From Beroe ovata (Eukaryota; Ctenophora; Nuda; Beroida; Beroidae): 23,311 nt of DNA. Within the stretch, counting starts at the first letter, position 1; each line of letters starts with the position of its first letter. The DNA is taken from assembly GCA_946803715.1 (NCBI GenBank), contig CAMPET010000475.1, forward strand, positions 3,279 to 26,589, written 5' to 3'. Shown here one piece after another: positions 263 through 21,808 of this stretch. Below the pieces are notes generated by a model. That model had not been told where the DNA came from. It did no database searches and saw nothing but the letters and a program-made list of their open reading frames with translations. The translations under genes were made by a program, and so were the position numbers.

Positions 263-2212
263 TGGCCGAAGTTTTTGAGGCACTAATATATTGAGAAATG
301 GTGATTTTGGGCTGCAAGTACTGCATTTATAAAAATCTGATTGGTAAACAATGAGTTGATTGGTAACCTACAAGGTGTTTGGGCTATACTAATGGGACTA
401 ATTCAATTTGATGCACTTTTAAACTCTTCAACATCACTGGTTAAGACCATGGTAAAAATAGATGCCAATGGCGCCAACTGAACTTGCTCTAAATACGCTG
501 AGCAAACTCCAATTTTCAGCTTCAAGCTTGATTCTAAGCCTCACTTTGAATGGATCATGGCTTATGGCATGCGCGAAAAATCTCAAATCATATTTGGAGT
601 TTGTCTTGTGATTTTGACGTGAATGACAAAGGAGGAAGACGTGAACAAATTTTTTGTCCAATATACCTACGGCTCAGTTGATATTCTTTTTGTACTCTAT
701 ACTACTAGCGACAGACCCCTGCCTTGATTGTTTCATATAGGCCCTAAAATTTTGCTGCCAATATAATGTTTTGTGCACCTGATACGATAAATAACACCTA
801 TTTCTGAATTTTTTTCCTGGGGCAGGGCCCCCAGACCCCTGCTGTGTGTTGCTCGCTTTGCTCGAAGCACAAAGTCCTTAGAAAGCAAGCTCCAAAAATT
901 TTTTTGATTGGCTCCTAAAAAACAAGTATATAGCCATGGTTTATTCTCAACCTAGTGGATGAAAAAATGTTCAAAGCCAGGTAAAATTTACTGAAAAATT
1001 CCCTACTGCACCTTTCATGCAAAATTATTCTTACCTAAGATGAAACTAAGATGCATCTCCCAACTCGTGCTTCAAATTATGGAGCCTTTCATGGAGTTTT
1101 AGAGTTAAAAAAAGTCATCTGAAAACCTTCAAAATTTAGCACGTAGCCGCAGTAATCTCTCTGGCTTCTGGGGGAGGTGCCCCCAGAATCCTGCTCAGGG
1201 TTACAGAACCTATTGTATGGAAGAACAAAATAAGATAGGGGAAGATAATATGGATTTCAAAAAGCCTTCAAGATTTGATTTAGATAAACTTTGCAGAGTT
1301 GCTGAGCGCTACTGCAGATTTGTGATTTTCAGAAGAATGGGATGAGCACTATAGTTTCTAGTGTTTCTTGATTGATTTGTCAAAGGACCCTTTCCTGGCG
1401 ATGCNTTTATATCATGTATTGCTAAATTGCTTGCTTATTCTTTCAATTGTAACTTTAATTGTATATGATTTGTAGAGTTTCTCCATGTTCGAGCCCCAGC
1501 TACCCTCACAGACAGCCAGACCAGCCTAGGCTGGCGGGATTTTCTCTATGATCCAGCTGGCATGCCCTTGCATGGCAAGGGCCAGGGTCGGGCGGCGACT
1601 AGACTGTACTTGTAGGGACGAACCCTATAAGTATACAATTAGCACTATGCGCTGGTGTTTACTAGGGGGCACTGAATTGCAGAGATATTAGGCGTTCGCG
1701 CGCGACGTTATTGTGCGAAAATTTGATTACGAACGGAATGTTGCGGAATAAATCAAATCATGCGTGCCTTTGATATTTGATTCCTGCGGTTTGGAGCCAG
1801 TATTGTATGCAATACTTAGATCATTGATATGGTGGATTGCATTTGCATCGTCTGTCATCATAATCGTACATAGACTCTATGATAGAGTTAGAGTCAGACA
1901 TAATCAAATGGCCTGGTCTGCGTCTTAGTTCCCCACAAGCGCAATAAAACGACCATGTGATCATCATTTCCTACGTATTTCTTACTCATTCTTAATCTTA
2001 TCGAATATGATACAATTACAAATACAAAAATTGATATCATCACTCAATCATCACAAATAATGAATCACAATGGAATCTTAGAATCACTATTAGCTTTGAC
2101 ATGGGACATGCATCAATTGTATCTCGCATGCAATAGTTATCATATTCATAGTACTAGAAGTCCTGAACCACAGTACACAGGTGATCCCATGCTCTTAGTC
2201 AATAGCTATAAT
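263..2212. other. No gene recognised; relics of repeats
   Basis: AT-rich DNA with short frames only. It contains GGGGG/CCCCC hairpins around 820-845 and 1165-1190 like those in repetitive elements. A GGCTGGCGGGATTTT stretch near 1530 is related to the MITE at 11952. A small hairpin lies at 1606-1637. No Kelch-like or other recognisable exon was found on either strand. Confidence 0.5.
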
Positions 2213-2313
2213 TCATTTGCTATGAACAGTAGCTTTGTTCAGAGCAGGAGCTACTTTTGCGACTTCAGGGTACTTTTCCACTGTGATTCTGTGGTACAGC
2301 TCCTGATAGGGAA
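2213..2313 (-). CDS. Possible alternative last exon of the RAG1-like gene
   Basis: If the donor at 2443 is used, an AATCAAG acceptor before 2313 gives a phase-matched 101-nt exon. It ends in TGA at 2215-2213 and has the peptide VPYQELYHRITVEKYPEVAK, then VAPALNKATVHSK. This would make an 891-aa protein. The peptide looks natural, but the acceptor has a poor pyrimidine tract and no AATAAA was seen nearby. Confidence 0.35.
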
Positions 2314-2411
2314 CTTGATTGTAGTACAATCAATCAGCAGCAAACCAGGAATTAAAATGACGATTCATTGAATCGTCATGAATCATTCAATTTCATGAAT
2401 CACTACTGTTT

Positions 2412-2566
2412 TTATAGTTGTTCTATTGTGATAATCAATGTACCTTCCTCTGTTTCTTCTTGTTGAATGACTTGTTGATGATATGACACGCTTCCAACTG
2501 GAGAACCTGGTGCGTGTTTATCAGATTCTTCTCCAGATTTCCTGAGAGTCAATGTGTCATAAGCGG
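2412..2566 (-). CDS. RAG1-like exon 18 (terminal)
   Basis: Residues 818-868 and a TAA at 2414-2412. Acceptor GTCAAGTAACAG. The tail (AYDTLTLRKSGEESDKHAP, later TLIITIEQL) is not recognised. A good internal donor (GAAG then GTACAT at 2443) would allow skipping to a possible exon at 2313-2213. Confidence 0.7.
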
Positions 2567-5500
2567 CTGTTACTTGACCAAAAAATATGGCCCCTCCCAT
2601 AAACCATTAGATTTCTCTATTGTTTCCACTATGACTGTGTTTTATCATATTCGCAGAATACCACCAGACCTCTAAAAGCCTGGAACTTCCGTATGTTCCT
2701 CCCCCTACCCATCACCATTTCCAGGCCATCCTCCGACAACGACTTGAGGCCACGAGAGTCGTTCTCTTCTATCCACTGCCATGAGTGGAACAGCACCTAA
2801 ACATATAAAATATTGAAATAGTAGTGAGTTAAGTATCCAAAGTATTGATCGAGCCCGTGAAATTCAATACAATCTGTCTCCCGGTACTCACGGTGTGAAG
2901 AGTCGGAGTGAAGCGGAAGAATCTCATCTTCTGAGTGATGAAAATCAGTAACTGTCTCGTGAGGAACTGATATTCTTTGATGTTGATTTTCTCATCACTG
3001 TTCAGAAGCTGAAATCATTATAATTATAGTACTATGTAGACCGTACTTCCGTTATAGATGATGTGCTCATAGAAATATAGTTTCGTAATATTGGTAGAAC
3101 TCGACATTCGTGACCCCTCCCCGTTCTCTATAATTATCTTTATCGTTACGTACAGTCAAGACCAAGAACATCTTATCCAAGAGTTCTTTGATGATTGGTC
3201 TATATTTGGCGTTCTTCATGCATCTGCTGATGGAATCACTGTTTTGGAAGAACGCCTTGGCTTGGTTTCCTACAAAGTCACAGATTATCATTATATAATT
3301 ATCGTCGCATATTATAATCGTCACAAGGAACTATCAATAATCTGAATAGGGCATTCATGGAAACCAGTATTGAATAATGAGTATGACTATGTTGTGATAC
3401 ATAAATATAAATTCCATAATTACCTACTAATCCACCACCAGTATTCCCAAGACCAATGTGTCGCACAGTTATTCCCGTTCTCCGTTTGATTCGATTTGCC
3501 ATCCGCTTGAAACCTTTGTCAAGCTGTTTCTTCGACTTAGATGGCAAATTGGAGATAGGGCTCAGCTTCTCGAATCCCTCCACACTAGAGTAGATCGGTA
3601 GTCAACAATATTGATATTGATGATTCTATTGTGATTTGTTGATGAGACTGAGACTGAGACTGAGAGAAGATGAATTTCATTTCGACACTTACAATTCGAT
3701 CTTAGCCATGTGATTAACCATTGTGCGACAGCAATTGATCCAGGAATGAAGTACCGTCATACTGTCCAATACAGTGAGGGGTTTGTCAGTGAAGTACTTT
3801 CTGATGGCGGCCGATTTGTACAAGCTGAATAATACAATAATTTAAAGAAATATCTTGCGTAAACCCAAAGGAAGGTTAAATTACAACGATAAATGACTCA
3901 ATCTGAAATGCTAAAAAACTTATTATATCAGTACTTCAATGATATACAATTACATGACGTACTTGTCATGAGCATATCTAAAGTACACGTTCTCTAGAGT
4001 CTGCTTCGCTTTTGCACAGTCATATTGCATCTCGTGAACCTGTGAGAGTTTTCAGCTCATGATCGGTTAAAGGGTCATTTTTCCCAAAACCAAATGAGAT
4101 TTGGTTGTTGAAGTCCGCAGCATCTGTGCGTCCTTTATTCTAAAGTCTGTGATATGAAAAAGAACGCGGCATATTCGTCAGACTGCCGCCACATCACGTG
4201 TAGAAACACTGTAGCTTTTTCTAGTGAGGTGGCGGCAGTCTGACGTATATGCCGCGTTCTTTTTCATATCACAGACTTTAGAATAAAGGACGCACAGATG
4301 CTGCGGACTTCAACAACCAAATCTCATTTGGTTTTGGGAAAAATATCCCTTTAACCGATCATGAGCTGAAAACTCTCACAGGTTCACGAGATGCAATATG
4401 ACTGTGCAAAAGCGAAGCAGACTCTAGAGAACGTGTACTTTAGATATGCTCATGACAAGTACGTCATGTAATTGTATATCATTGAAGTACTGATATAATA
4501 AGTTTTTTAGCATTTCAGATTGAGTCATTTATCGTTGTAATTTAACCTTCCTTTGGGTTTACGCAAGATATTTCTTTAAATTATTGTATTATTCAGCTTG
4601 TACAAATCGGCCGCCATCAGAAAGTACTTCACTGACAAACCCCTCACTGTATTGGACAGTATGACGGTACTTCATTCCTGGATCAATTGCTGTCGCACAA
4701 TGGTTAATCACATGGCTAAGATCGAATTGTAAGTGTCGAAATGAAATTCATCTTCTCTCAGTCTCAGTCTCAGTCTCATCAACAAATCACAATAGAATCA
4801 TCAATATCAATATTGTTGACTACCGATCTACTCTAGTGTGGAGGGATTCGAGAAGCTGAGCCCTATCTCCAATTTGCCATCTAAGTCCAAGAAACAGCTG
4901 GACAAAGGGTTCAAGCGGATGGCGAATCGAATCAAACGGAGAACGGGAATAACTGTGCGACACATTGGTCTTGGGAATACTGGTGGTGGATTAGTAGGTA
5001 ATTGGCATTTATATTTATGTATCACAACATAGTCATACTCATTACTCAATACTGGTTTCCATGAATGCCCTATTATTGATAGTTCCTTGTGACGATTATA
5101 ATATGTGACGACTATATAATGATAATCTGTGACCAACTTTGTAGGAAACCAAGCCAAGGCGTTCTTCCAGAACAGTGATTCCATCAGCAGATGCATGAAG
5201 AACGCCAAATATAGACCAATCATCAAAGAACTCTTGGATAAAATGTTCTTGGTCTTGACTGTACGTAACGATAAAGATAATTATAGAGAACGGGGAGGGG
5301 TCACGAATGTCGAGTTCTACCAATATTACGAAACTATATTTCTATGAGCACATCATCTATAACGGAAGTACGGTCTACATAGTACTATAATTATAATGAT
5401 TTCAGCTTCTGAACAGTGATGAGAAAANAGTGTTCTCTCTCTATATCTATATATATGGTCGTCACCCAAAAAACGACAAACACCCTCGATTTCGGCGATT

Positions 5501-8500
5501 TCAAGTCGCTATAACTTCGCCATTTTTCATCCGATTGACTTGAAACTTTGGTTGCCGCCACTCCATGGCCCAAATAGACGGAAAACGAAGTTTCATAACA
5601 ATCGGATATAAAGAAGTGGTGTTATTGATACTCGAAATTTGGCGAATCCGTAAAAACATATAGTAGGGTCTGGCAAGCGCCGCAGCTTTTCGCGCGTTAC
5701 ATAAACGCACAAGGCTCACCAAGTCGGCCCTTCGGGCCGCCTCGGTGAGCGAGCTCGCAAAAAGGGCCCTTCGGGCCCTTTTTGCTCGCACGGTCAACAT
5801 TCCCTACAGATGCCGCGGGGGGCTTGCCAGCCCCCTGATAAGATATATAGTTGTGTCCATTGTGTCCACTGTCCAATGATCATCGGTTATTCCAATTGAC
5901 GTCCAACTTCAATGAACAACAGTATGAAAATTTTGGTACTTTCGTTCATTGGTGTGCAATGGACACAATTTTCACTTTTCTATGTTCAGTGGACATGTTC
6001 AATCGACACAATGGATTCGATCTCGTTCATTTGAGTGGACACATTAATGTGTCCACTCACAATTGGACAATTGGACACAATCACAAATCTCACGACCATT
6101 TTGCCACAAAATCAATTCATTGTGTTTGTAAAACTTATTACCACTGGCAGAGCTCGAGAGGGATCTTTAGGCCGTGCACACCAATATTCGGAGATGTGCC
6201 AGTCACAGTGAATACAGTGTGCACCAGCCCGGCCAGACAGAATACCCCTCAACTTGCCATCAACCATGGATCGCTTTATGTTGAATGACACGTTGAGGTC
6301 CTTGCTGGCACCAGAGTCGTCTGTGCACTTGATTATCATCGAGGTCTGGTTCTTCGGGTACCTTGAATTGAACGAAGATAACATTCATGCAATAGAACCT
6401 ATCTATTTATGAATGCAGGTTCTGTAATATCAATCACACATTATGTAACTCATGAGGATGTCTCAGCCGTTAAAATATTGAAATGTAGCGGTTACAGTAG
6501 CTTGCTTTCCAATCGTCACATAACATTGTTACATCACACCTATTCGGTGCGTACTGCGTATTGCCCAAATTTCACTCGGCTTCGCCTCGAGAAATATGGC
6601 CAAATACGCACCTCATAGGTGTGATGTAACAGTATATTATTTTGCACTTTTATTCAAGTGAGGAATTGCAAGATTTATATCGGCCTAAACTCACAGCTCC
6701 ATCAATTCTTCGCATAATTCATAGTCCTCCTTTGATAGCACCAGAGCCAGTGGTTCTATCGAGAAGTTTGAGTTCGGGTAAGGATTCCGCCATATCGTTT
6801 TAGGCTGATCCTGCGATTGAGTATGTTACATACTTACACTGTAATACAGTCACTTAAGTAAAAAGAAACCCTTCAAACAGATACCATTATAAATATAAGT
6901 ATAACAATAACATAAAAGGAAGGCATTTTGATTAAAATCAGGGTCTTAAGTCGCATTTCCATACCCAACCACGCCCTGGCTACACCCAATTTGCTACTGA
7001 AAGTTGAAACAGTGATCATGGGAGGTTAGCATCGGCGGCAAATGTATGCTTGGTCGACGGTTTTTCAAAACACTTGACCTTTCACAACGCCCCGACCACG
7101 CCCTTATTCTGGAATTCATTGATAATCCATGGCTTTAAATTCTAATTAAGTCTTGAGTATATCATCATCATGACCCGTTGTTATCAATTTGTTCAATGTT
7201 CATAATCATTTTATGTATATAGAAGAAAACTAGGTTTTACGACTTAATTAAGGCACAAAATAAATGGAGGCAAGAGGATACTTTTCACTGACTTACCGGC
7301 TGTGAGGTGTCGATGATTTCTAGGACACAATAGCCCATAGTCACCATCTTTCTCAGTTTCTCTTTGATATGGATCTGGTTGCCAGCCCCATCCAGTCCGT
7401 CTTTGATGTTGAGCTGGATACAATCAACGTCATCGGGAATGAGGCCAGCAACACTCATATTCTTGGTGACTGCAAGTTTCATCAAATTTGAAGGTAATAG
7501 GAAGATGATAAATTGATAAAAGAAGGAAAACTATGTACCTATAAGTATGCATTCTATCGGTAGAGAAAGCGCCGATCGAAAAATACCTTTTCTGAGTGAA
7601 TCAGGATAAGTTACATGGGCCATTGTGTTGACAGTTTTTCCTTTGATTACCTTAGGTCTGAAAATAGTCTTGAGTTCGACAAATGAGTAGTACCATAATT
7701 ATAACTGCCTTATTTTGGGCCAAGGCCGCAACAGTCCAATAAATCATCATTTTAATATCATGTAAAGGGCGGATCCGCATTTTGCATTGAACTAAAATCA
7801 TATGAGGATATGAAGTCACTCCTATCTTACCTCCCAATCTTGACAGGCGTTGTGATGCTCTCCTTGGTTTTGGCCAGTTTGAATCTGCCAGGCAGGACAA
7901 ACGCGGTATTTTCAGAGATGAACTTTCGCAATTTGTCTGTCTGTAGGTCAGATAGCCTGGCATGGACCTTGAAACTCTGCAGGGATTTATAGTTATCAAT
8001 TTCCAGTAATCATAGGATATTGCAGCTGACATTGATGCTGAAAGGAACCATAATTAGATAATTGTAATATCTCAGAATACGCATGCGTCAACGCTGAATT
8101 CATCAACTAATACTATACTGTTTACCATCAACTTGAGAGGATCGATGGATTGCGGCTTGGGCTCTATTCTCTTCCGCACCGTATCACAGTATACTCCGTA
8201 TTTTTGATCTTTTTCCCGGAGCATTTCAGCGATTATATCCAGAGATTCCAGCTCAGTGCCATCACCCAAGCCATCTTCGTTCATCATCTGTAGATTCATA
8301 ATGGTAATATTTTGTACTTTGATATCAATATGCTAAAAATGCGCGCATATCTCTATTAATATTATAATTTGGCATTCTCTCTTTTATTATGGACTCTGTG
8401 TTATTCTGACTAGGCTTTCAATTTCGGTGAAAAAAGTGTGAAGTAATACGAAAATAGTGTGAGGTAATACTTATTCGGGAAAAGTGTGATGTAATACGAA

Positions 8501-10643
8501 AGAGTGTGATATGATACGAAAAAAGTGTGGTGTAATGACCCAAAATAACACGTTACTCCACCGGATAATTCAGCCACGAGGTATTAAATACGTTTACTGT
8601 ATAGCATTCATGTATGCTTTTTTACCTCATTGAGAAAGTCGAGTGCCTTGGTTGTATAATATTTGATTCTACGCAACTTCCCGGCTGGTGTAAGGCGTGA
8701 ATAATTCTTCCTCTTAGGTGTTGGAGGTTTAACCTGAAAATAATTCTAGCATAACACGTATAACACGTATAACATAACACGTATAACATAACACTTATAA
8801 CACACCTATGACCTAGCAAACCTAGAAAATAAAATTATTCAGATTACGGCTACAAAGTTTATTGGAAGATCAAAAAGCTACAATAGTGCAATGTATGATT
8901 TTGTAGAACCTCAATGATATTCAGCATAATTTAAAGTACCTTCTTCCTTTTGCCTCTGACTTGCACGACCACTGGCACCACTGGCAACCTCACAAGCACC
9001 TCTTCTTCAACCAATGCTTTCTTGCGCTTTGCAGCCTCATTCAATCTTCTGATCTGCATGGAATTTCGAGATCACAGATATGCATAAACATTTTCGATCT
9101 CTTCAGCAGAAATTGGAAAAGTATCAGATCAGTATCTCAGATCAACCAATTTTGATTAGTTTATAATGGCTATCTATAGTATCTATCCGATATTTCAATT
9201 TACCGAACGGTTCACTGCTTTCACGTGTGTTTCATTGTACTGTAGCTGGATCGACTCTTGCTCAAAAACTTCGCTGGCAATCTCCTCCAGAAGTTTGGAT
9301 CCAGTCTCTTTGAAGCCGATCTTGGCCCTGACCCGTTCGAGATCACGGATTCTGACTTCATGGAGTGGAGCCATTTCTCCTCGTTCAGGAGTAGAGAAAA
9401 CTTTGTTTGGTGTCGACGTCCTAGTATCTTGGTCATGTGTCAGCTGTTGCCCACTACTAGTTGTATCTGGAGTACATATGACAGCTTCCTCATCGTCAGG
9501 AGAATCTACATATCTTGCGTCCAGTCTAGTCCTCTTGGCAGCACCTATCAATCGTGAATTTAGTGGTATCTTATGATAATAAAAAGACACAAACTACAGA
9601 ATTTGTGATATCATGATATAAGTAGATTCTAGACCATTAATTGCAGCTTGCAATACATATTATCATACGGAAGCCCAGGAAACAGAAACATAGGAAACAA
9701 TTGAATTAATTATTAAATGAATCGGCAAAAGGGTCCATTGTGTCCATTGTGTCCATTAGACTAAAATACCAGTTTGATGTCCATCAACAAGGGAAGATTT
9801 GTAGATGTGTCCATTGTGTCCACACAGATGCACAAGATCGATGTCCATTGTGTCCATTGAACATGTCCATTAGACATCGAAAATGCACAAATTGTGGCCA
9901 TTATGTCCACTGGTGTGCAATGGACAAAAATACCAAATTTTCATACTGAGCGGAATGTCTAATGGACGTCTAATGGACGTGCATTAGACGTGCATTAGAC
10001 GTGCATTAGACATTCCCTTATTGATGGACACAATGGACACATCTACAAATCTTATGACCCTTTTACCTGTTATTGTTAAGTAACTCACGTTTCGAAGCAA
10101 AATCCTGTCTCGGAAAGTAGTCAGATAATCCTAGCACAGTAGACATTCCAGTCGGAGTTGAAGCCACTGGCGTTTTCCTTGGCAATCCAGACGATCGTGG
10201 AGTTTCGCAGCCTCTCTCGTCATCTGCAATAAAAAATGTAAAATACTAAGCAATAATAATGTAATTGTGCCCTCAGGAACCATAACAATTCTAATTAAGT
10301 CATATGAATGTTTAACACAACTGTGACACTAGCTACGAAACAGCTGCGACAACTACAGCTGTGCCGCAGTTGTGGTGTATAGTTGTGTTGCAGTTTTGTC
10401 GTCGACAAAATTAACTCGTACGACATCCAGTTCTTACTTGAACTAGAAAACAGGATGGCCGGAAAAGAGAAATAGGATCAGAATCAGATTTAGGAATGGA
10501 TACCAACCGCTATTTCTGGCTGAGTCGTTGGAAGAGATGTCCGTGTCCGAACCATCTTCTGTTCGCTCCGAATTGTATTGATCTGAGTCCGAGGAGGAAA
10601 TTATATCCTCAGAACTAAATGCTAGGTCTGACTCTGAACTCAT
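2412..10643 (-). CDS. RAG1L: RAG1/Transib-like DDE recombinase, 18 exons
   Basis: Seen: 18 minus-strand exons with GT-AG borders and matching phases join into 2607 nt, which is 868 aa plus TAA. Exons, 5' to 3': 10643-10508, 10223-10089, 9544-9204, 9053-8940, 8733-8626, 8287-8126, 7976-7831, 7657-7587, 7469-7297, 6810-6695, 6361-6142, 4039-3963, 3824-3693, 3584-3424, 3269-3154, 3008-2892, 2796-2670, 2566-2412. Known family: RAG1 and Transib transposases cut DNA with an RNase H-fold DDE site and a C2H2 zinc site. Here the candidates are D428, D535, E801 and C550/C553/H774/H779. D428-D535 spans 107 residues, against 108 in RAG1 (D600-D708). The WRNPYP motif, DGK motif and GNxAxxFF motif also fit. 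No RING finger is visible in the first 240 residues. The start is the first in-frame ATG; an upstream exon remains possible because TCAG lies 9 bp before it. Whether this is a host gene or a transposase is open. Confidence 0.86.
2670..2796 (-). CDS. RAG1-like exon 17, catalytic Glu
   Basis: Residues 776-817. After H779 the peptide reads IEENDSRGLKSLSEDGLE, then RGRNIRKFQAFR. RAG1 has IIERDGSIGAWASEGNE, then FRRFRK, in the same place. E801 is the candidate for RAG1 E962, with Transib-like SExxxE spacing. Acceptor TATGTTTAG, donor GTCTGG. Confidence 0.92.
2892..3008 (-). CDS. RAG1-like exon 16, first zinc His
   Basis: Residues 737-775, phase 0 both sides. It ends FTPTLHT, giving H774, which pairs with H779 of the next exon as HTVLFH and matches RAG1 H937/H942 (HKTLAH). 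The left palindrome arm begins inside this exon at 2987; the mirrored copy at 5406-5427 is cut off after 22 nt. Confidence 0.92.
3154..3269 (-). CDS. RAG1-like exon 15 (left arm)
   Basis: Residues 698-736. GNQAKAFFQNSDSISRCM, then IIKELLDKMFLVLT. The donor is GTACGT; without splicing the frame would run to a TGA 27 codons later. Copy at 5145-5260 on the plus strand. Confidence 0.9.
3424..3584 (-). CDS. RAG1-like exon 14 (left arm)
   Basis: Residues 644-697. A basic segment (KSKKQLDKGFKRMANRIKRR) is followed by GLGNTGGGLVG. The latter runs into the next exon as GNQAKAFF, the glycine-rich GNxAxxF motif of RAG1/Transib. Donor GTAATT. Copy at 4837-4997 on the plus strand. Confidence 0.92.
3693..3824 (-). 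CDS. RAG1-like exon 13 (left arm)
   Basis: Residues 600-643. Contains TVLHSWINCC, which fits the LHxxI block following the CxxC in RAG1 (LHCDIGNA) and Transib. Acceptor TTATTCAG, donor GTAAGT. Copy at 4597-4728 on the plus strand. Confidence 0.9.
3963..4039 (-). CDS. RAG1-like exon 12 (left palindrome arm)
   Basis: Residues 575-599: VHEMQYDCAKAKQTLENVYF followed by RYAHD. The acceptor CTCTCACAG is required because the frame meets a TGA just upstream. Donor GTACGT. An identical-length copy lies at 4382-4458 on the plus strand. Confidence 0.88.
4382..5427 (+). pseudogene. Inverted partial copy of RAG1-like exons 12-16
   Basis: Plus-strand exons 4382-4458, 4597-4728, 4837-4997 and 5145-5260, plus the first 22 nt of exon 16 (5406-5427), with intact splice sites. 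They encode the same residues as the minus-strand copies (575-736). The copy lacks both N-terminal catalytic Asp residues and the catalytic Glu, so it cannot make an active enzyme. It lies antisense inside intron 11 of the complete gene. Confidence 0.85.
5429..5847. repeat. Repeat-like DNA in intron 11 with two GC hairpins
   Basis: Contains hairpins at 5714-5750 (GCTCACC...GGTGAGC) and 5757-5785 (GCAAAAAGGGCCC, loop TTC, perfect 13-bp arms). It also contains GGGGGGCTTGCCAGCCCCC and a CTCTCTCTATATC stretch at the palindrome edge. The appearance is that of a mobile-element remnant. Confidence 0.6.
5848..6105. mobile_element. GTCCATTG-family element in intron 11
   Basis: Rich in TGTCCATTGTGTCC and its reverse complement. 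The right end CACAAATCTCACGACCATTT resembles the right end of the 9724-10067 copy (CTACAAATCTTATGACCCTT). Its GTATGAAAATTTTGGTA segment recurs inverted at about 9930. It ends 36 bp from exon 11. Confidence 0.6.
6142..6361 (-). CDS. RAG1-like exon 11, second catalytic Asp and zinc CxxC
   Basis: Residues 501-574. SMVDGKLRGIL carries D535, the probable equivalent of RAG1 D708 (RAG1 reads YDEKL here). Fifteen residues later comes HCIHCDWH with C550 and C553, matching the RAG1 zinc ligands C727/C730. The donor GTAATA at 6141 is phase 0 and opens the 2.1 kb intron 11 that holds the inverted arm. Confidence 0.92.
6527..6631. mobile_element. 105-bp MITE with 17-bp perfect TIRs, intron 10
   Basis: Ends are TGTTACATCACACCTAT and its exact reverse complement. 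The interior has a CGTA...TACG secondary hairpin. No coding capacity and no clear target duplication. Confidence 0.75.
6695..6810 (-). CDS. RAG1-like exon 10 (WxNPxP motif)
   Basis: Residues 463-500. Contains TIWRNPYPNSNF followed by IEPLALVLSKE. This matches the conserved W-NP-P-S...PL-L--KE block seen in Transib/RAG1 cores between the first and second Asp. Acceptor CAATCGCAG, donor GTGAGT. Confidence 0.9.
7297..7469 (-). CDS. RAG1-like exon 9, first catalytic Asp
   Basis: Residues 405-462. Contains LNIKDGLDGAGN. By comparison with the RAG1 segment CDGMGD, D428 is the candidate counterpart of D600, the first metal-binding Asp of the RNase H fold. Acceptor ACTTGCAG, donor GTAAGT. Confidence 0.92.
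7587..7657 (-). CDS. RAG1-like exon 8
   Basis: Residues 381-404, a 71-nt exon reading PKVIKGKTVNTMAHVTYPDS. Acceptor TATTTTCAG, donor GTATTT. It is too short to be picked up as an open reading frame alone; phase agreement on both sides supports it. Confidence 0.85.
7831..7976 (-). CDS. RAG1-like exon 7 (pre-core)
   Basis: Residues 333-380. Starts SFKVHARLSDLQTDKLRKF and ends TPVKIG with two bases of the codon that becomes R381. The resulting junction reads KIGRPKVIKG. Acceptor CCCTGCAG, donor GTAAGA. Confidence 0.88.
8126..8287 (-). CDS. RAG1-like exon 6
   Basis: Residues 279-332, phase 0 at both ends. It begins MMNEDGLGDGTELESLDIIA and continues with a helical, charged segment, possibly the second half of the DNA-binding and dimerisation domain. 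It also contains CDTVRKRIEPKPQ. Acceptor GAATCTACAG, donor GTAAAC. Confidence 0.85.
8431..8538. repeat. Degenerate tandem repeat in intron 5
   Basis: About five copies of a roughly 20-25 bp unit built on AAAAGTGTGATGTAATACG. Confidence 0.7.
8626..8733 (-). CDS. RAG1-like exon 5 (nonamer-binding-like segment)
   Basis: Residues 243-278. Basic peptide PPTPKRKNYSRLTPAGKLRR, then IKYYTTKALDFLNE. Its order (basic grip, LTxxxKxRR, helix with Phe) and its place just upstream of the catalytic core resemble the RAG1 nonamer-binding domain. This is an inference from position and composition. Acceptor TTATTTTCAG, donor GTAAAA. Confidence 0.82.
8749..8803. repeat. AACACGTAT tandem repeat in intron 4
   Basis: Short tandem copies of ATAACACGTAT/ATAACATAACACGTAT immediately upstream of exon 5. 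Confidence 0.75.
8940..9053 (-). CDS. RAG1-like exon 4 (basic, NLS-like)
   Basis: Residues 205-242. A charged helix (IRRLNEAAKRKKALVEEEV) is followed by a valine-rich strand and a terminal RGKRKK cluster that could serve as a nuclear localisation signal. Phase 0 at both ends; acceptor CCATGCAG, donor GTACTT. Confidence 0.8.
9204..9544 (-). CDS. RAG1-like exon 3
   Basis: Residues 91-204, the longest exon (341 nt). It opens with a basic AAKRTRLDAR and continues through an acidic and Thr-rich stretch. It ends in a probable helix (HEVRIRDLERVRAKIGF, then LLEEIASEVFEQE). No Cys/His RING or zinc-finger pattern is present, unlike vertebrate RAG1 N-termini. The donor is GTAAAT. Confidence 0.8.
9724..10067. 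mobile_element. GTCCATTG-family element, intron 2
   Basis: The outer ends GGCAAAAGGGTC and GGTAAAAGGGTC are inverted. Inside, perfect 29-bp inverted arms lie at 9794-9822 and 10025-10053, beginning AAGATTTGTAGATGTGTCC. The middle has ATTAGACGTGC tandem copies around 9955-10010. It looks like one element nested in, or tandem with, a second partial copy. No coding capacity. Confidence 0.75.
10089..10223 (-). CDS. RAG1-like exon 2
   Basis: Residues 46-90. The acceptor is TTTTTATTGCAG and the donor is GTGAGT. The Pro/Ser/Thr-rich peptide (ETPRSSGLPRKTPVAST) looks like a linker with basic patches. Phase 1 on both sides matches exons 1 and 3. Confidence 0.75.
10508..10643 (-). CDS. RAG1-like exon 1 (start codon, acidic serine-rich N-terminus)
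   Basis: Residues 1-45. ATG at 10643-10641 opens MSSESDLAFSSED, a Ser/Asp/Glu-rich, probably disordered segment. It ends with one base of a split codon at a GTTGGT donor, the least typical donor of the set. If an upstream exon exists, this ATG may be internal. Confidence 0.65.
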
Positions 10644-10783
10644 TTGGTATCCTGATCAATGAAACAGCATGTTACTACCTCAACACCTCAACAGTGTGAC
10701 ATTGTAGCTTCGTAGTTGTACTATTATCCATTTCACGCACTCACAATCAGCAAATTAATCAAACTCAATTGTATTGTACTATA
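10644..10783 (-). promoter_or_regulatory. Presumed upstream region of the RAG1-like gene
   Basis: Only about 140 bp separate the ATG from the next repeat element. No clear TATA box was found. GATCAG just before the ATG could instead be a splice acceptor from an upstream 5' exon. Confidence 0.3.
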
Positions 10784-11110
10784 GTGTCCATTGTGCCCAC
10801 CCGGCACCCATCGATGTCTATTTTACATTGAACATTTGAACCATTAACATCCGACACAAATTTCTATTGATGGACACAATGGACAGGGGACATGTTGGAC
10901 AAGGCAAGTGGGAACGAGAGCGCAAGACTAAGATTGCGTCAAATACGCCACACTTGCAGCCCAATGACGCCATTTTACGCCCTAATAGCCTTTTTTCGAC
11001 TGATCGTAATTTGAGATCAAAACATGCGCCCAATTATTGCGTTTTTATTTTTGCACTCCTTCCCACTTGTCATTGACACAACTCTACCGAAATCTTATGA
11101 GCATTTTACC
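10784..11110. mobile_element. GTCCATTG-family element upstream of the gene
   Basis: The left end is GTGTCCATTGTGCCCACC. An internal inverted GGACACAATGGACA lies near 10875. The right end GAAATCTTATGAGCATTTTA resembles the ends of the copies at 10067 and 6105. Confidence 0.55.
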
Positions 11111-11832
11111 GTACGATGCAAGCAAAGAAGTAACTGCTGAAACCGACACAATAACTCGATCGTGTAAACTTGTGTTAACATTGGAAAGTCCTTCTGAAAA
11201 TAGTGCATTTTGTCGACCAATCAAGTCCGAGACCGGATATGGGATATAATCCGATTCACACCATGACAATGATTGGAGCTTGGCCTTTGCTGTGCATGGG
11301 TTGAGCTTATGACGTAATTAACCCACGCAATTTTCATGATCATTGCTTAAATATTGCAGCGACCTGCGACATAGATGAGTTTCATTTTCAACTTCGCTGG
11401 TTCCTGAAAAATCCGATTTGATCGAATTAACATTCAACAGTACCTCCTCAAATTCGATCAACTTCAAATGCTCACGCAATTGTGATTATTTAGCTAACCG
11501 CAGACCGTATCTCACTATCTTATATCCCGGAAATTGAAGAAAGTCATCAGCTGCATACAGTCCGTGTCGTCATTGTACCGTATAGAAACTGGAAAATGGA
11601 AAAGTTTTAGTAAATATCTATTCATGAGGTTCAGGTTCCTCAATAAGAATAGAATTCAAAATACCTTGAAATATTTGGATAACCTAGCGGCTAACATAAG
11701 TAACACGTTAACACAAGTATGAAGTATCATAAGTAACATAAGATCAGCGGACTTTCACTATCAGTAAAGTAGTTTCTCTTGCCTGCCGATGCATCATGCA
11801 TCATGCATCACTCTCGTGATTCGCTGCACTTC
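11111..11832. other. No gene supported
   Basis: Short frames occur on both strands (for example 11101-11249 plus and 11269-11084 minus). Neither has start context, splice support or a recognisable motif. ATTCGATCA/TGATCGAAT inverted segments lie near 11420-11460. Confidence 0.4.
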
Positions 11833-12560
11833 CCAGTAATCACCGGATCACTTGACGGTCATCGCTGCATTACTAGCTGGTCATCGCCGCATCACTTGTC
11901 GGTCATCACCGCATCACTTGACGGCCATCGCACCGCATCACTTGACGGTCATTGTAGGATTTCACCCTACCCTTGCTGGCGGGATTTTATCCCTGGCAAG
12001 GGATAAAATCGGATTGAAAATCGCGCGCACCGACGGTAGGGTAAAATCCTACAAGACGGTCATCGCCGCATCACTTGAAGTTGACGGTCATCACCGCATC
12101 ACTTCCCAGTAATCACCGCATCACTTGNNNNNNNNNNNNNNNNNNNNNNNNNNNNCGCCGCATCACTTGTCGGTCATCGCTGCATCACTTGAAGTTGATG
12201 GTCATTACCGCATCACTTCCCAGTAATCACCGCGCATCACTTGCCGTTCATCGCGGCATCACACATCACTTGACGGCCATCGCGCCGCATCACTTGACGG
12301 CCATCGCGCCGCATCACTTGACGGCCATCGCGCCGCATCACTTGACGGTCATTGCTGCATCACTTACCACTTGCCAGTCATCACCGTCGTTCACCACCGC
12401 ATAACTTGTCGGTCTTACCGCGTCACTTGCCAGTCATCGCCGCGTCACTTGACGGTCATCACCGCGTAACTTACCAGTCATCACCGCATCAATTCCTATA
12501 GTAATCACCGCATCACTTGATGGTCATCACTGCATCACTGCCGTTCACCGCAGCATCACT
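11833..12560. repeat. 22-bp minisatellite
   Basis: The core unit is CGCCGCATCACTTGACGGTC plus AT, with variants (CACCGC, GACGGCCAT, CCCAGTAAT) and longer units containing TTGAAGTTGA. A 28-base N run (12128-12155) interrupts it, so copy number is unknown. The 22-bp period shifts the reading frame each unit, so the open frames here are not genes. Confidence 0.92.
11952..12054. mobile_element. 103-bp MITE with 8-bp target duplication
   Basis: The ends are TTGTAGGATTTCACCCTACC and, inverted, TTGTAGGATTTTACCCTACC. Flanks on both sides are GACGGTCA (11944-11951 and 12055-12062). The insertion splits a minisatellite unit cleanly. An 8-bp duplication suggests hAT- or P-type mobilisation (inference). 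Confidence 0.85.
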
Positions 12561-13559
12561 CGCCAGTCTTCACATTCGCCTCATCACTGTTCTCGCCGAT
12601 CATAACTCACCGGCCATGCCGCCATGGCCCGGGCAGCTTGGCATCACTGCACTGTCAGTCATCGCCACATCAATTGGTTGTCAGCACTACACACTTCATC
12701 ACATCACACATGTTTGTCATCATCCGTATCACTTCCTCTTGCCAGCTTTCTTCGCTGTTTTAGTATTCACATAATGTATACCTAGGTCCTATATTCGCAG
12801 CAATATAAGCAATCGTGACTATGACTGTGAGTACAAATATTAGTGGTTATAGTTATACTTATAACCGGTGGTTATAATTGCATCCTGATCCTGGATCCAT
12901 CGGCATTCAGTTCCATATTTCAAAACCAGCCCCTTCCAGTTCCACATATTGCTCATGCTGTTCACAATCCCTGCCAAAACACCGAGAGATGTTCATAAAG
13001 CATACGTCATACTGTTACTGGCTAGCTTATAGTAGTTTGTATTCCTAAATTACCATTCAATGTCCGGTTATTAGAAATTTGCGTCATACTCATACTGATA
13101 CTGATAGCGTGAATTATACTCATTATCATAGGTTATGTGTTACAGTTTCGTCTATTCCCGATTCTTTTTATATTAACTTTAAGTTTAATACATCCATACT
13201 TGCGTCAAAATCCTGGCCAAGAAGCATCAGGAAAAAATGCAATGTTAACATTCCCCTTATAACTATATTCCAGCTCGACTTGATAATGATTATATGTCAG
13301 GGCGTCTGGCGTCAGGCGTGAGGCGTACGCGGTCCAAATTTTCCTTTCTCTGCACGACATCCATCGTTCTAAATGTTCAATGCCTATGAAGGTAAAATGC
13401 AGATACCATAGAAACATGTAAATTTCTCGGATTTAGCTTTTGATCAATGCCGATCCATGCTCCATTTCCCACTCCCAGATATCTCACGTGAAATTGCTCA
13501 ATGGACCGACAAGAGTCAGGCACGAGCTGGCTCAAACCTCCTCCTTTTCCCGGAATCTA
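12561..13559. other. No gene supported
   Basis: Degenerate minisatellite remnants up to about 12740, then AT-rich DNA. There is a small GGTTATA/TATAACC inverted cluster at 12845-12880 and a GGCGTCTGGCGTCAGGCGTG stretch near 13300 that looks repetitive. Confidence 0.45.
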
Positions 13560-13930
13560 ACCAGGATATAATTGTTTTGGGGCGGATAATTGTCTCCCCG
13601 ACCTCAATAAACAGAAGAATGTCTATTTCCAGACAAATTGAAACTCAAGCTGATTGGCTGTGACCTATGATTGGTGACCTATGATTGGCTGAAATTACAC
13701 CTCGCGTCCCACTCCCAATGGCAGTAGTGACGTAGCACACATGAGCACTCTCACAGCACATTCTCACTCTTCTGCTCCCACAATGTAATAGAATTTTGTT
13801 TATTTAGGGAGCAGATAGCTGTCTCTTCCGCTTCGACAAAGAGAGGAATATGTTTTCAGACAGATTGAAACTCTGCCTTCTGATTGGTTGAAAAGGTTTA
13901 CTCGGTCTATGATTGGCTGATATGATGTGT
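13560..13930. promoter_or_regulatory. Duplicated segment with clustered CCAAT boxes
   Basis: Two diverged copies of an ~85-bp segment (about 13575-13660 and 13810-13895) both run through CAGA-ATTGAAACTC into GATTGG. Five ATTGG motifs lie at 13652-13685 and 13889-13918, and a GTGACGTAG CRE-like site lies near 13728. Clustered NF-Y-type boxes suggest a promoter, possibly for the candidate exons at 14257. Confidence 0.35.
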
Positions 13931-14256
13931 TGTTTTACATCGCTATAATGCTGCAATGATGACACGCGACTCGCCCATATTGATATTATAGTAGCAGTAC
14001 ACTTTGTGTTGCTATTTCATGATCAGAATAAGTACCACTGTCCACACTTGTCAGAGTATTTTAATTCATCTCTCTGCATAAGTTCACTCTCAGTTCGAGC
14101 TCAGAGTGAACGTTTATCAAAGCATCGTAGATTTCACTTTTAGCTGTGACTATCAGTTATAGTGGTAAAAGATAAAGTTTGATATGTTAGAAATAATTTG
14201 TACTTATGCCGTATATGTAATGACGATAATAGTAATACATCCATTTTTCATTTTAG

Positions 14257-14579
14257 AATGAATATATCGTGAGAATTCGGACTATGTGCGGGCATCCACA
14301 GGCTGTTTTCATGAGAGATCACTTGCAGGTATTCGATTGTACCACCATGATTTCTGATTCTCGATTCACAGAACGCGCAGCTCGCGACCCTTTCTTGCGC
14401 ATTGATTCAATTAACTCGCTAGAGTTCAGTACTTCTATTCAGTATGATCACATTGATATTGGCTGAAATGGTGCTTTATCACCATTTGACTGGAACCATT
14501 TGACTGAATCAATAAGGATATTCATTCTAACACTCTTTCAGATGAAAGTGAACCTGTATTACAACGTGTTTGGAGCTAA
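14257..14579 (+). CDS. Candidate last two exons of an unknown gene
   Basis: After a TTTTCATTTTAG acceptor, 14257-14428 reads NEYIVRIRTMCGHPQAVFMR, then DHLQVFDCTTMISDSRF and further hydrophilic residues. The GTACTT donor in phase 1 joins an acceptor CTCTTTCAG and 14542-14579, ending NESEPVLQRVWS and TAA. I do not recognise the protein, and no upstream exon was established. Alternatives are read-through to TGA at 14466, or a different frame (MKVNLYYNVFGANGG) at 14542. Confidence 0.25.
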
Positions 14580-15660
14580 TGGAGGTGATATGTCAATCTG
14601 GTTTGCACAAGTCGGTGTTCGACCCGTACTCATGGTCATACGATTGATCAGTGCAATCTGCATGAGTGATGCACTATGACTATGCCACACTCATGCAATA
14701 TATGTGATACTGATACTGAATGACTTTGACTGGACTGCAGATGCCATGCCTCGTTGACAATTGACATGAATCTAACTGTAAGTGTAAGATACTTTGAGTT
14801 TAAGAGACAGTGATCATGATATACGAGTAAAGGGAAATCTATTTGAATCATATTCAGAGATATTGAAATTAGTTAACATTGATTTTGACTTTGAGTAGGA
14901 AGTACCGACTATCACTATCCCGGAATAGTGATATCAGGTACCTGCCTATCACTGTCAAAGGAAATAAACCGTCAACTCTTGAGACCACTCCAGACTCCTT
15001 AACCACGTTCTATTTAGATGTGGCCTGTTGTCACTCCAAATCCTATTACGCTTAAAGTTTGTACGTTCAATGTTCATATTCATGACCTTCATTCGACTTT
15101 TTTCAGGAGAATGACAAGTAGTATGAAAGGCACTCTTCAATTACCTGCACCGAACGAAATCAGACCTCACAGGTGAAGATAAGGAGATGAAGAAGAATAC
15201 GAATTGAGTCTAACTCTAACTGCTGGTGACCTATGGAATGGTCAGTGGTCCTTAATTGTCCAATTTCATAACAGACGTCCAGCTAAGTCTGCAGTGTCCC
15301 TTTGATATTTTCTGTCGAGGTATGAGGACTGATCTGACAGACATCTGTGTGGTTTCGAACACATTTTCCGTTTTGTTTTGGTGGTGTCGATGAGTATCGA
15401 TTTAAGATGCAGTTCCATGTGGATCAAAAGAGCATATTTTTGATATCATTATCCAGTCTATATCAATTATTATACTCATTGATAATTATGATGTTCACAT
15501 AATATTAATAATTCTTTATCATCTGTTGTTGAACAGTTTCTTGATCTTATGTACAGAGAAGCGTGTAACATGATACGATATGGGCGTAAGCTCTCTACCG
15601 CAACGCATGAAACGACCCATGAAGTTGCGACCGACTTATTTCAACGTCCATTTTCGAATT
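14580..15660. other. No gene supported
   Basis: AT-rich. It contains isolated splice-like sites (for example a 14741-14777 segment between CTGCAG and GTAAGTG), but they do not assemble into a consistent gene. Confidence 0.4.
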
Positions 15661-15759
15661 GTTCCGTACTTCGCCCCATATAGAGACCTACACCATGTTT
15701 TAGAGGAAAGATCAAGCTTTATCACAGTATGCACCACTAAGGGGGGCGAAGTACGGAAC
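15661..15759. mobile_element. 99-bp MITE with 17-bp perfect TIRs
   Basis: Begins GTTCCGTACTTCGCCCC and ends with its exact reverse complement. The interior has no coding content. A related ATTCCGTACA end occurs near 15950. Confidence 0.8.
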
Positions 15760-16074
15760 ATGAAAATAATTGAGGCTGAAAATTCCCTATTTTTGATCGA
15801 TCATAACTGGTTGAATTATTCAAATCTGTGTAAAAATGAAAACACCGTCATAAAGTACAGACTTTCATCTTTCTGATGAGATAAAACAGAGCCAGCTAAG
15901 GTTTATACACCCTTCACAATGAAGGGTTGAGTACACCACACTTTCTCGATATTCCGTACATTTAGTGCTGCGCGTTCCCCCAAGTTAAAATATCGCGAAA
16001 TCAGCGCATAGTGATTAGTAGTAGTACAATTACAAGATCAAGAATTAACAGATTGGCAATTTGTCAGAATGCAG

Positions 16075-16450
16075 TCAAGTTGCCTGGCGATGTTAGGCCC
16101 AGCTGGCGCCGCGCGAGCCGCGAAGCTATCTGAGAATAATTTGCGGCGCGCGCGCAATGAAATTCTCGACAGGGGCTATCATTGCCGGATGTTATGTTCC
16201 CGCGCTGCGTGACCCAAATACTCCGCGCGCGCTGCGCGTCTCCGTGGTTTGGACTACGACTTTTCAGTTCACTGAGTAGAACAGGGGCGCGCAACGTGTG
16301 CACACGGATGTTATCTGTCCATGACTGCTTCTTGCGCGCGGCGCGCGCGGCGCGCGCAATAAACAGTGGACAGATAATATCCGGCAAGGCTATCATCGAC
16401 AGCATTGCTGCTTCCCGGATGTTATCTGTCCACTGTTTCTTGCGCACCAT
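16075..16450. repeat. GCGC-rich island with CCGGATGTTATCTGTCC repeats
   Basis: The motif CCGGATGTTATCTGTCCACT (often followed by TTGCGCGC) occurs near 16187, 16305 and 16415, and inverted at 16350-16384. This makes a hairpin from 16305 to 16383 around GCGCGCGC. Related copies sit at 19627-19700. The local GC content is far above its surroundings. Confidence 0.75.
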
Positions 16451-16459
16451 ACAACAAGA

Positions 16460-17372
16460 GTCTAAACTTAGTTTCTTTTTTGAGTTTCTGAATCATGGGT
16501 AGTCTCCACCAGCATGGCAGTGCAGGTCATTGTTTATGAACAAGCAGTTGTGATCAGTGATGGTTCAATAGTGATTAGTATTCAAGTATTTGTTTCTTTA
16601 AGTTTATTCATCACTAGAAAACCTGTTAAATGGACGTAATTATCTACAAATTGAGCCATATCAGATACAACACAACAACAACGTTAATCAAAAACAGCAC
16701 AATGATGCATTTTCCTATTGAATGAGGTCAGAGATATTGAGAGTAAATGGATGTCAAGTCTCAACTACGCTCTCAAAACATTGATTTCATGACGGAGCAC
16801 TTTGGAACAAATTGGCCATTTCTTCTGATTGGCACTGTGACATGATACTTGCCCCGTTGTACGAATTTCGTTCCAATTTGCATTGTGTATGTTGACAAAA
16901 TGACACAATCAATTCTAATAGTGAGTCAAATAATACTTACAGTACAGATGCAACAACTTAATATTATATTTTGTAGAATCGTTGCTCCAATCAGCTTGTG
17001 CATTGTTCCTAAAAAGTGAAAAAGGACGAAAAAGGAACGTAACCAAAGCACCACCATTATCAGAAATGAGTTCCTAGATCACTATTACAGTTATAGCACA
17101 TGTCCATGGCGACGCGCACTTAACTTCAAAATCAGTATGTGCATTTCATGACAGACAACTGGACAAACAAACAACCAAATTATAATAGAGATGGTGCTTT
17201 TATTCATTCATCATTGTGGAACATAAACAGATTGTTTGAGAGTTTCATAATTTGACTTGTAAAATGTGACTGAACTTTTCGAACTGCCTTACTGCACAGA
17301 GAATTTTTTCAACAAATATTCACATTGCAAGATTTAGATTCTTTTATATAGTTTGGACTGTATGCAAATCTA
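16460..17372. other. No gene supported
   Basis: AT-rich intergenic DNA with short interrupted frames and no recognisable motif. Confidence 0.4.
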
Positions 17373-17374
17373 TA

Positions 17375-17846: not shown

Positions 17847-19048
17847 CGGAAGAACTAAAATCTGCAAAATGGGCCAAATGCGGACCCGTGTGGAATAGCG
17901 CGCGCACATTGTAGTCTCATATATTGCACTGCGCGCTACGCAATAGATGCAGAATAACACAATAGTCCACAAAATTTGTGCACTTGTGACATGTAACAAG
18001 AATTCCTCTTGTGATCCCGCTGGGCAAGCGCTAGATTGCCCTTCCCCCGACTATGACACCAGACATACCATACATTTTACAGTATATAGTGAGCATACCA
18101 TACATCGTAATTCGTAAAATTGTGAGGTGGACTAAAAGACCCCTAGATCACCGCTGGTATCCACGTTGTTGAGCTGGTCAGTTAAGGGNGTCACCGGAGA
18201 CGTCACCCGTGATGTCACAACTAGTTGGGGTCTAAACTCCCTGTGTCAATTATTTCCAATAGAAAGGATATGTTGTGTCCAAGAGACATATTGAATCCAG
18301 TGGCCACTGGCCATAATGTGTCTAATGGCCATAAAAACGTTGTGCTGTATGTTTAAACATATTTGGAAGAATATTATTGTTATTGTGTTTATTGTGTTAG
18401 ATTATATTTATGGGATTTGGATTGTGATGTGATTGTTAGAGTAAATACTATATCTCATGGCTAGTGAATGAATCATGGTGTAGCCGTGGACGCTGTGCAA
18501 GTTAAGAGTGTTGGTAAGACAGTCGGGTGAAGCTGAGTGTTGACAGTTGAAGAACTGGTGGAACGAGTATAGGAGAGTTTCCAGTCAGTCCAGTAAGCAC
18601 GAGTTGATTGAAGGATTAGAGAGATGTGTGATATCCCACGGGAAATGTGTGTTGAGTGGGTTTCTAACCCATACTCCCTATCCCAGGCTATCTAAGTGGT
18701 ACAAGGTGCAACTAAAACTCTTCTAGAGTTCTTCTAGTAAAAAATAGTTTGTTTTACTAAAACTATTTGTTTTTACTTCTAATCATGCAAGTGCTACTTA
18801 AGTTTGCAAGTACTTTTGATTGTGAGAGAATAACTATTACTGAGTGTTGGTACTAGACTACACTGCTAGTCAGTGTGAGTGTTATTGTGATGACACAAGT
18901 GTTACTATTCGGTATCTCCCAATTGAAGTGTGACAACCAGTATTAGTGGTGGGTAAGTGAGAGGTGACAGACAGACTCACTTCCTCATCATCCAAGAAGA
19001 GTAAATCATATATACACATCCATATCATATATACACATCCAAGAAGAG
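17847..19048. other. No gene supported
   Basis: A CATACCATACAT duplication lies near 18065-18105, and a GTCACCGGAGACGTCACC segment follows the N at 18188. A long GT-rich stretch at 18380-18960 has many GTGTT and TAGTG words. A direct repeat TCCAAGAAGAGTAAATCATA appears twice just before the hairpin. Confidence 0.4.
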
Positions 19049-19210
19049 TAAATCATATATACACAATCAATAAAGTTTCTCTTATATGAGTCTGGAACAC
19101 TAAACTCGATCTCTTCTTGGATGAAATTTTTATTTCATCCAAGAAGAGATCGAGTTTAGTGTTCCAGACTCATATAAGGGAAACTTTATTGATTGTGTAT
19201 ATATGATTTA
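19049..19210. repeat. 162-bp hairpin with 79-bp arms
   Basis: The arms are complementary around a TTTT loop at 19128-19131, with one mismatch seen (CTCTTAT against ATAAGGG). The outer sequence begins TAAATCATATATACACAATC. The stem includes ATCTCTTCTTGGATGAAAT. Confidence 0.92.
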
Positions 19211-20782: not shown

Positions 20783-21062
20783 TAGGGTGCACATTGCGCC
20801 CCTAGTATCTCAGATTAAACCTGACTTTTTTCTGGTGGTGAGGTTCGATATAGAAATAGAAACTGTGAAGTTTCAGCAATATTGGGCAATGTTTAGAACT
20901 GGCAGGGGGCCCATAAAGTCCCGCGCGGGGTCTTCGTGGCCCCGAATACTGTATCTCGGCTCCTGAGCATGCTATAGAGTCAAATTATAGCTCAAAAGAT
21001 GCGCAACCAGCATGTTTATATAAGACTTGTTAATATACTATAGGTCTATCTTGATCCATTTT
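20783..21062. repeat. 280-bp direct repeat, copy 1
   Basis: Begins TAGGGTGCACATTGCGCCCC and ends GATCCATTTT. Nearly identical to 21529-21808. A 7-8 bp stem hairpin (ACCTCCGC...GCGGAGGT, 20751-20782) abuts its start, and an N follows its end. Confidence 0.93.
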
Positions 21063-21528: not shown

Positions 21529-21808
21529 TAGGGTGCACATTGCGCCCCTAGTATCTCAGATTTAACCTGACTTTTTTCTGGTGGTGAGGTTCGATATAGA
21601 AATAGAAACTGTGAAGTTTCAGCAATATTGGGCAATGTTTAGAACTGGCAGGGGGCCCATAAAGTCCCGCGCGGGGTCTTCGTGGCCCCGAATACTGTAT
21701 CTCGGCTCCTGAGCATGCTATAGAGTCAAATTATAGCTCAAAAGATGCGCAACCAGCATGTTTATATAAGACTTGTTAATATACTATAGGTCTATCTTGA
21801 TCCATTTT
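21529..21808. repeat. 280-bp direct repeat, copy 2
   Basis: Same length and sequence as 20783-21062 apart from one clear substitution (GATTTAACC for GATTAAACC). Confidence 0.93.

Follow-up and report, generated by a model that had tools for sequence, protein, structure and literature searches.

A predicted RAG1/Transib-superfamily transposon with an intron-rich transposase gene and asymmetric ends in Beroe ovata

Results

A 19-exon transposase gene is conserved in three copies

The stretch examined here (23,311 nucleotides of Beroe ovata contig CAMPET010000475.1, hereafter the window) carries a predicted minus-strand transposase gene inside an element with inverted ends and a 5-bp flanking duplication (Table 1; all coordinates are window positions). 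Rebuilding the exon chain from the DNA letters by GT-AG joining gives 19 exons running from 10643 to 2213, with 879 codons followed by TGA, GT-AG boundaries at all 18 introns, consistent phases and no internal stop. An earlier note on this DNA had described an 18-exon chain of 868 codons ending at 2412. Its exons, phases and open frame were recovered, whereas a nineteenth exon that ends in TGA had been missed; neither the codon count nor the end point was exactly reproduced. The odds of 879 open codons arising by chance at the base composition of the window are ~1e-22, a crude figure that is weak alone because the exons were picked for openness. Comparison with other copies is the true independent test.

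Table 1. Features of the window and the evidence used to place them
Feature	Position	Strand	Basis or remark
Transposon, 14,371 bp	1643..16013		right boundary common to three copies; inverted ends; ATTAG flanks
Target site duplication, left copy (ATTAG)	1638..1642		flank comparison
Left terminal inverted repeat: CACTATG + 11 nt + ACTAGGGGG	1643..1672	+	
Right terminal inverted repeat: CACTATG + 21 nt + ACTTGGGGG, minus-strand reading	15967..16013	-	same end in C475, C193
Target site duplication, right copy (ATTAG)	16014..16018		flank comparison
Transposase gene, 19 exons, 879 aa	2213..10643	-	splice rebuild; agrees with C475 and C193
Exon 1 (begins with an inferred start codon at 10643)	10508..10643	-	splice rebuild
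Exon 2	10089..10223	-	splice rebuild
Exon 3	9204..9544	-	splice rebuild
Exon 4	8940..9053	-	splice rebuild
Exon 5	8626..8733	-	splice rebuild, copies
Exon 6	8126..8287	-	splice rebuild, copies
Exon 7	7831..7976	-	splice rebuild, copies
Exon 8	7587..7657	-	splice rebuild, copies
Exon 9, D431 (KDGLDG; aligns with RAG1 CDG motif)	7297..7469	-	splice rebuild, copies, alignment
Exon 10	6695..6810	-	splice rebuild, copies
Exon 11, D535 (MVDGK) and CxxC pair	6142..6361	-	splice rebuild, copies, alignment
Intron 11, 2,102 bp (about 245 bp in C475, C193)	4040..6141	-	copy comparison
Antisense duplicate of exons 12 to 15 plus 22 nt from the start of exon 16	4224..5427	+	adjoins N at 5428; possible assembly artefact
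Exon 12	3963..4039	-	splice rebuild, copies
Exon 13	3693..3824	-	splice rebuild, copies
Exon 14	3424..3584	-	splice rebuild, copies
Exon 15	3154..3269	-	splice rebuild, copies
Exon 16 (first H of HxxxxH)	2892..3008	-	splice rebuild, copies
Exon 17, E797 (SEDGLE) and second H	2670..2796	-	splice rebuild, copies, alignment
Exon 18	2444..2541	-	splice rebuild, copies
Exon 19 (absent from earlier model; ends TGA)	2213..2302	-	splice rebuild, copies
Conserved blocks shared by copies, without a recognised gene	13113..16013		copy comparison

The assembly from which the window derives (77.8 Mb, 534 contigs) has nine Wnt gene matches, on four contigs, in keeping with an animal genome; a search for COX1 gave no match. 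This assembly was searched with the catalytic core. Two further copies with the same exon pattern were found on contigs C475 and C193, and exons 5 to 19 have identical lengths in all three. The C475 copy is contiguous, contains no unspecified base (N), has 18 GT-AG introns and retains a fully open frame of 881 amino acids. In C193, exons 5 to 19, the portion covered by the frame check, are open, and 17 of the 18 introns are GT-AG; the exception is intron 1, where the diverged exon 1 could not be aligned. The exons are conserved, yet nine of the 18 introns have no detectable match between copies. Across exons 5 to 19 the synonymous divergence (Ks) between copies is 0.18-0.55, and the ratio of nonsynonymous to synonymous divergence (Ka/Ks) is 0.119 for window-C475, 0.063 for window-C193 and 0.070 for C475-C193. 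The conserved exons and shared exon pattern establish that the gene is real.

More distant relatives, at about 37-50% identity, were found on contigs C71, C26 and C37, with a weak match on C22. Those on C26 (L011), C71 (L012) and C37 (L013) form a second, intron-poorer branch of this transposase family in the genome; the pieces seen have broken frames or extend into masked regions. The protein searches scored the best 7,999 candidates, and hence further relatives may exist; a search of GTDB genomes and viral contigs found none.

The protein belongs to the RAG1/Transib superfamily

A profile made from the window protein and four relatives matches HzTransib (2e-13), amphioxus RAG1L (5.1e-9) and mouse RAG1 (8.5e-6). 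The predicted structure of one relative, P0003, superposes on the same three proteins; this model was built from 40 sequences and replaced a 5-sequence model with a predicted local distance difference test (pLDDT) score of 50.3. The catalytic D-D-E residues D431, D535 and E797 fall in aligned RAG1/Transib columns, as do the zinc ligands C550/C553 (CxxC) and H774/H779 (HxxxxH). Profile matches, fold superposition and aligned catalytic columns thus confirm the kinship proposed earlier, and the protein has the sequence and fold of a RAG1 core.

Tree inference on 21 sequences (509 columns), without the C26 and C71 fragments, separates three groups with split support of 100: the window family, the insect-type Transibs, and RAG1 with RAG1L. 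The last group is represented by BbRAG1L and mouse RAG1 fragments only. The 11 Transibs are so called by kinship, seven having insect names and none being named Transib. The window family lies outside both other clades, and the window protein is 17-20% identical to the 11 Transibs and HzTransib and 21% identical to BbRAG1L. The stretch between CxxC and LH spans 69-74 residues in all eight window-family sequences measured, 59 in BbRAG1L and 29 in nine of the 11 Transibs (the nine matched by the expression used). HzTransib is left out of this comparison, its value of 7 being an artefact of two printed stretches having been joined. Among Transibs, a RAG2-binding region corresponding to this stretch is described for Subgroup I and not for Subgroup II (PMC9435367). 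The length of the alpha11-alpha12 region here (69-74 amino acids) fits Subgroup I, but a large part of that region scores under 50 pLDDT in the P0003 model.

An element with asymmetric ends surrounds the gene

Homology between the copies extends far past the gene. On the right it stops at the same base in each, at window 16013, C475 16635 and C193 13392; all three carry the same right end, after which each has a different flank. The left end of the window element starts at 1643 with CACTATGCGCTGG.

The genome was searched with CACTATGCGCTG followed by 4-34 bases and GGGG, with the reversed pattern as control. The 28 rows recovered correspond to 18 distinct sites, of which four have the left form and 14 the right; the control yielded none. 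Between the heptamer and the second, G-rich block lie 11 nt in 4/4 left ends and 21 nt in 14/14 right ends. C125 has a fifth left end with the same spacing and one G changed. Five two-mismatch hits without a second block (L005, L014 twice, L024:1019 and L041:898) are left out of the flank counts. At least 13 distinct right-end flanks are present in the genome. Exact 5-bp partners among 13 distinct right-end flanks exist for three of the five left-end flanks, versus ~0.06 expected, and one such pair, ATTAG, flanks both ends of the window element on a single contig. The C125 left end belongs to an internally deleted derivative of 4,882 bp (C125:65371-70252; L050, L033), which has no transposase exon matches.

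The other half of the element

Between 10.7 and 16.0 kb no gene was recognised by open reading frames (ORFs), cross-copy translation or Pfam searches of three ORFs, all weak tests. The conserved blocks there are alike in several frames and include stops. The longest ORF (15574-15873, plus strand, 100 codons) is interrupted by stops in five of eight copies, with pN/pS (nonsynonymous over synonymous differences) of 0.27-0.71 in seven comparisons; C125 keeps it open as well, as do the diverged copies C193 and C282 (71 and 78 codons matched). A RAG2 model run on the whole genome gave one match below threshold, at 16 bits against a cut-off of 21. This is a weak negative because RAG2L is hard to detect by such means: vertebrate RAG2 misses even amphioxus RAG2L by blast (PMC7204232, in excerpt).

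By eye, a degenerate tandem repeat of CATCACTTG and GGTCATCG units occupies 11800-12600, and comparable units are present close to an element end on C85 (L031). Outside the element, a 22-bp tandem repeat of GTAACAGTGTTAACATGGGG type fills positions 1-158 at the window edge. A near-identical direct repeat of ~280 bp (20784-21062 and 21530-21807, the first copy halting at an N) and a long inverted repeat around TTTCATCCAAGAAGAGATCGAG at 19040-19210, resembling a miniature inverted-repeat transposable element, were also noted by eye.

Discussion

A mobile element is the favoured explanation

The conserved gene model, the RAG1/Transib kinship with its catalytic residues, the asymmetric inverted ends, the 5-bp duplication and the several copies are, taken as sequence evidence, very probably those of a cut-and-paste RAG1/Transib-superfamily transposon (1643-16013) with one transposase gene and 18 introns. 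Host-type splicing would remove the introns from the transposase transcript. Kinship to RAG1 and HzTransib suggests that the spliced product would, as a dimer, bind one end with an 11-nt spacer and one with a 21-nt spacer, nick next to CAC, form hairpins on the flanks as the element is excised, and insert it with a 5-bp stagger. The lineage retains a zinc-binding stretch of RAG1L length, with no RAG2 partner seen. We also consider, tentatively and with more doubt than confidence, that this is a third, RAG2-free RAG1/Transib lineage that came to hold ~18 introns while mobile and must pair an 11-spacer with a 21-spacer end, as in a 12/23-like rule.

Several observations weigh against a transposon of this kind. 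Masking hides the left end in C475, and the C193 homology halts at an N before reaching it. The sequence joining the two ends of the window element contains the N at 5428 and a run of Ns (12128-12155). Two of the three duplication pairs are on different contigs, CGACA on C9 and C35 and TGCAG on C239 and C180, and two of the five left flanks (C85 and C125) match no right flank. On its right the C125 derivative has the flank found beside the window element (92.9% over window positions 14465-17374), and on its left a different one. With respect to the protein, a Pfam scan of the window sequence itself returned no match (PF26100 is recorded for relatives from the protein search), and the modelled relative P0003 is only ~40% identical to it; pLDDT is under 50 in the N-terminal portion of the model and in some of the zinc-binding region.

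The cross-contig pairs (L024 on C9 with L027 on C35, and L041 on C239 with L036 on C180) look as if one insertion had been split, and single Ns lie just inside these ends on all four contigs. They may reflect contigs misjoined at the Ns. The window contig and C125 are probably haplotypes, leaving the left side ambiguous.

The window copy and the possibility of a chimera

Intron 11 is 2,102 bp in the window versus 245 and 246 bp in C475 and C193. An inverted duplication spans 2987-5427, with arms of ~1.2 kb that differ in 29 of 1,215 columns, and it may be a real rearrangement or a scaffold artefact. Its antisense exon copy adjoins the N at 5428, so that exons 1 to 11 and 12 to 19 are linked in the window across a doubtful spot. 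Divergence is also uneven along the gene: Ks in exons 5 to 11 is 0.28 for window-C475, 0.98 for window-C193 and 0.89 for C475-C193, compared with 0.08, 0.23 and 0.24 in exons 12 to 19, a roughly fourfold fall in the 3′ half in all three pairs. This unevenness in the sequences suggests either exchange between copies or a chimeric assembly.

Both the exact position of the N and the window-C475 step in Ks would be expected if exons 1 to 11 and 12 to 19 came from different copies joined in intron 11. We consider such a chimera unlikely, given that C475 carries the whole gene, free of Ns and with an open frame of 881 codons, that both ends of the window element carry ATTAG, and that the step recurs in C475-C193, fitting exchange between copies. 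If true, the chimera would concern the window copy alone and not the family.

RAGL transposons and host genes

A RAGL transposon proper would hide a RAG2-like gene in the other half, too diverged or intron-split to detect. The ~5 kb without assigned function, partly conserved between copies, the RAG1L-like length of the zinc-binding stretch and the elusiveness of RAG2L genes (PMC7204232, in excerpt) speak for it. Because the subthreshold RAG2 match, the stop-containing blocks and the broken ORF all point the other way, if only as weak tests, we regard this as quite improbable.

The earlier note had taken the intron load to suggest an old or host-adopted gene. "Old" may hold for the lineage (Ks up to 0.55 in exons 5 to 19), but host adoption is not supported, given the inverted ends, the 5-bp duplication, the three transposase-bearing copies and the extra end copies. 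A lone domesticated host gene, expected as a fixed locus lacking such ends, was rejected in view of the transposon ends, the ATTAG duplication and the multiple copies. That three selected, intron-rich copies serve the host, their ends being co-duplicated relics, is very improbable: strong purifying selection at Ks 0.18-0.55, conserved introns and possibly functional multi-exon RAG1L genes in sea urchin (PMC8355894, in excerpt) favour such a family, but the ends and duplication are intact in the window, and the right flanks, of which the genome has at least 13 distinct ones, differ between copies, so that the copies did not stem from plain segmental duplication. Indeed, 18 conserved introns alone do not make a domesticated transposase gene, which corrects the earlier argument.

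Introns in a transposase gene

Introns as such are not new in these genes, since sea urchin has RAG1L genes of several exons (PMC8355894, in excerpt). What is unusual is the presence of 18 introns inside an element with intact ends; among the papers listed by searches of an open-licence library, none concerned an intron-rich Transib or RAG1/Transib elements in sponges. P0003 runs uninterrupted over 13 of the 18 window intron positions, and sequences P0001 to P0004 might be assembled transcripts. The genomic C26 relative runs through eight of the positions, in two reading frames, and therefore is without at least eight of the introns. Most introns were either gained in the window lineage or lost in others, and with such relatives in the same genome, intron gain and loss in a mobile gene become traceable. 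An introner origin was rejected: the introns are mutually dissimilar, except for intron 11 against introns 12 to 15 (the palindrome) and against intron 2 (a shared short repeat).

Comparison with known systems

By published description only, not by sequence, the window element resembles the Subgroup I Transibs (PMC9435367), with which it shares asymmetric ends, a single transposase gene, a zinc-binding stretch of RAG1 length and a roughly equal distance from RAG1L and insect Transibs; the 18 introns set it apart. With insect-type Transibs (HzTransib; Subgroup II) it has in common the fold and catalytic residues, as well as the CAC-type ends and 5-bp duplication reported for Transibs (PMC7204232, in excerpt), but it differs in sequence (17-20% identity), in clade and in the CxxC-LH stretch (29 versus 69-74 residues). 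ProtoRAG and other RAGL transposons belong to the same superfamily and likewise have a 5-bp duplication, CAC-type ends and a similar zinc-binding stretch (59 residues in BbRAG1L). Unlike them, the window element has no RAG2L seen, and identity to BbRAG1L is 21%.

Asymmetric ends are known elsewhere: fly and mosquito Transibs have 12/23-like ends and ProtoRAG has 27/31 spacings (PMC8355894, in excerpt), an algal RAGL has 4/13, and Subgroup I Transibs are asymmetric in general (PMC9435367); the spacings here are 11/21. The 10-bp difference recalls the 12/23 signals of V(D)J recombination, which also shares the fold, the catalytic residues and bipartite signals with spacings about one helical turn apart. 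The window element, in contrast to the RAG1/RAG2 system, is a predicted transposon without a known RAG2 and has a G-rich second block. Why V(D)J recombination pairs 12- with 23-spacer signals is an old question, and recognition of the asymmetry is reported to need RAG2 (PMC8355894, in excerpt). A RAG1-type transposase without evident RAG2, whose 18 matched ends all conform to a 10-bp spacing difference, would make this question testable in a simpler enzyme.
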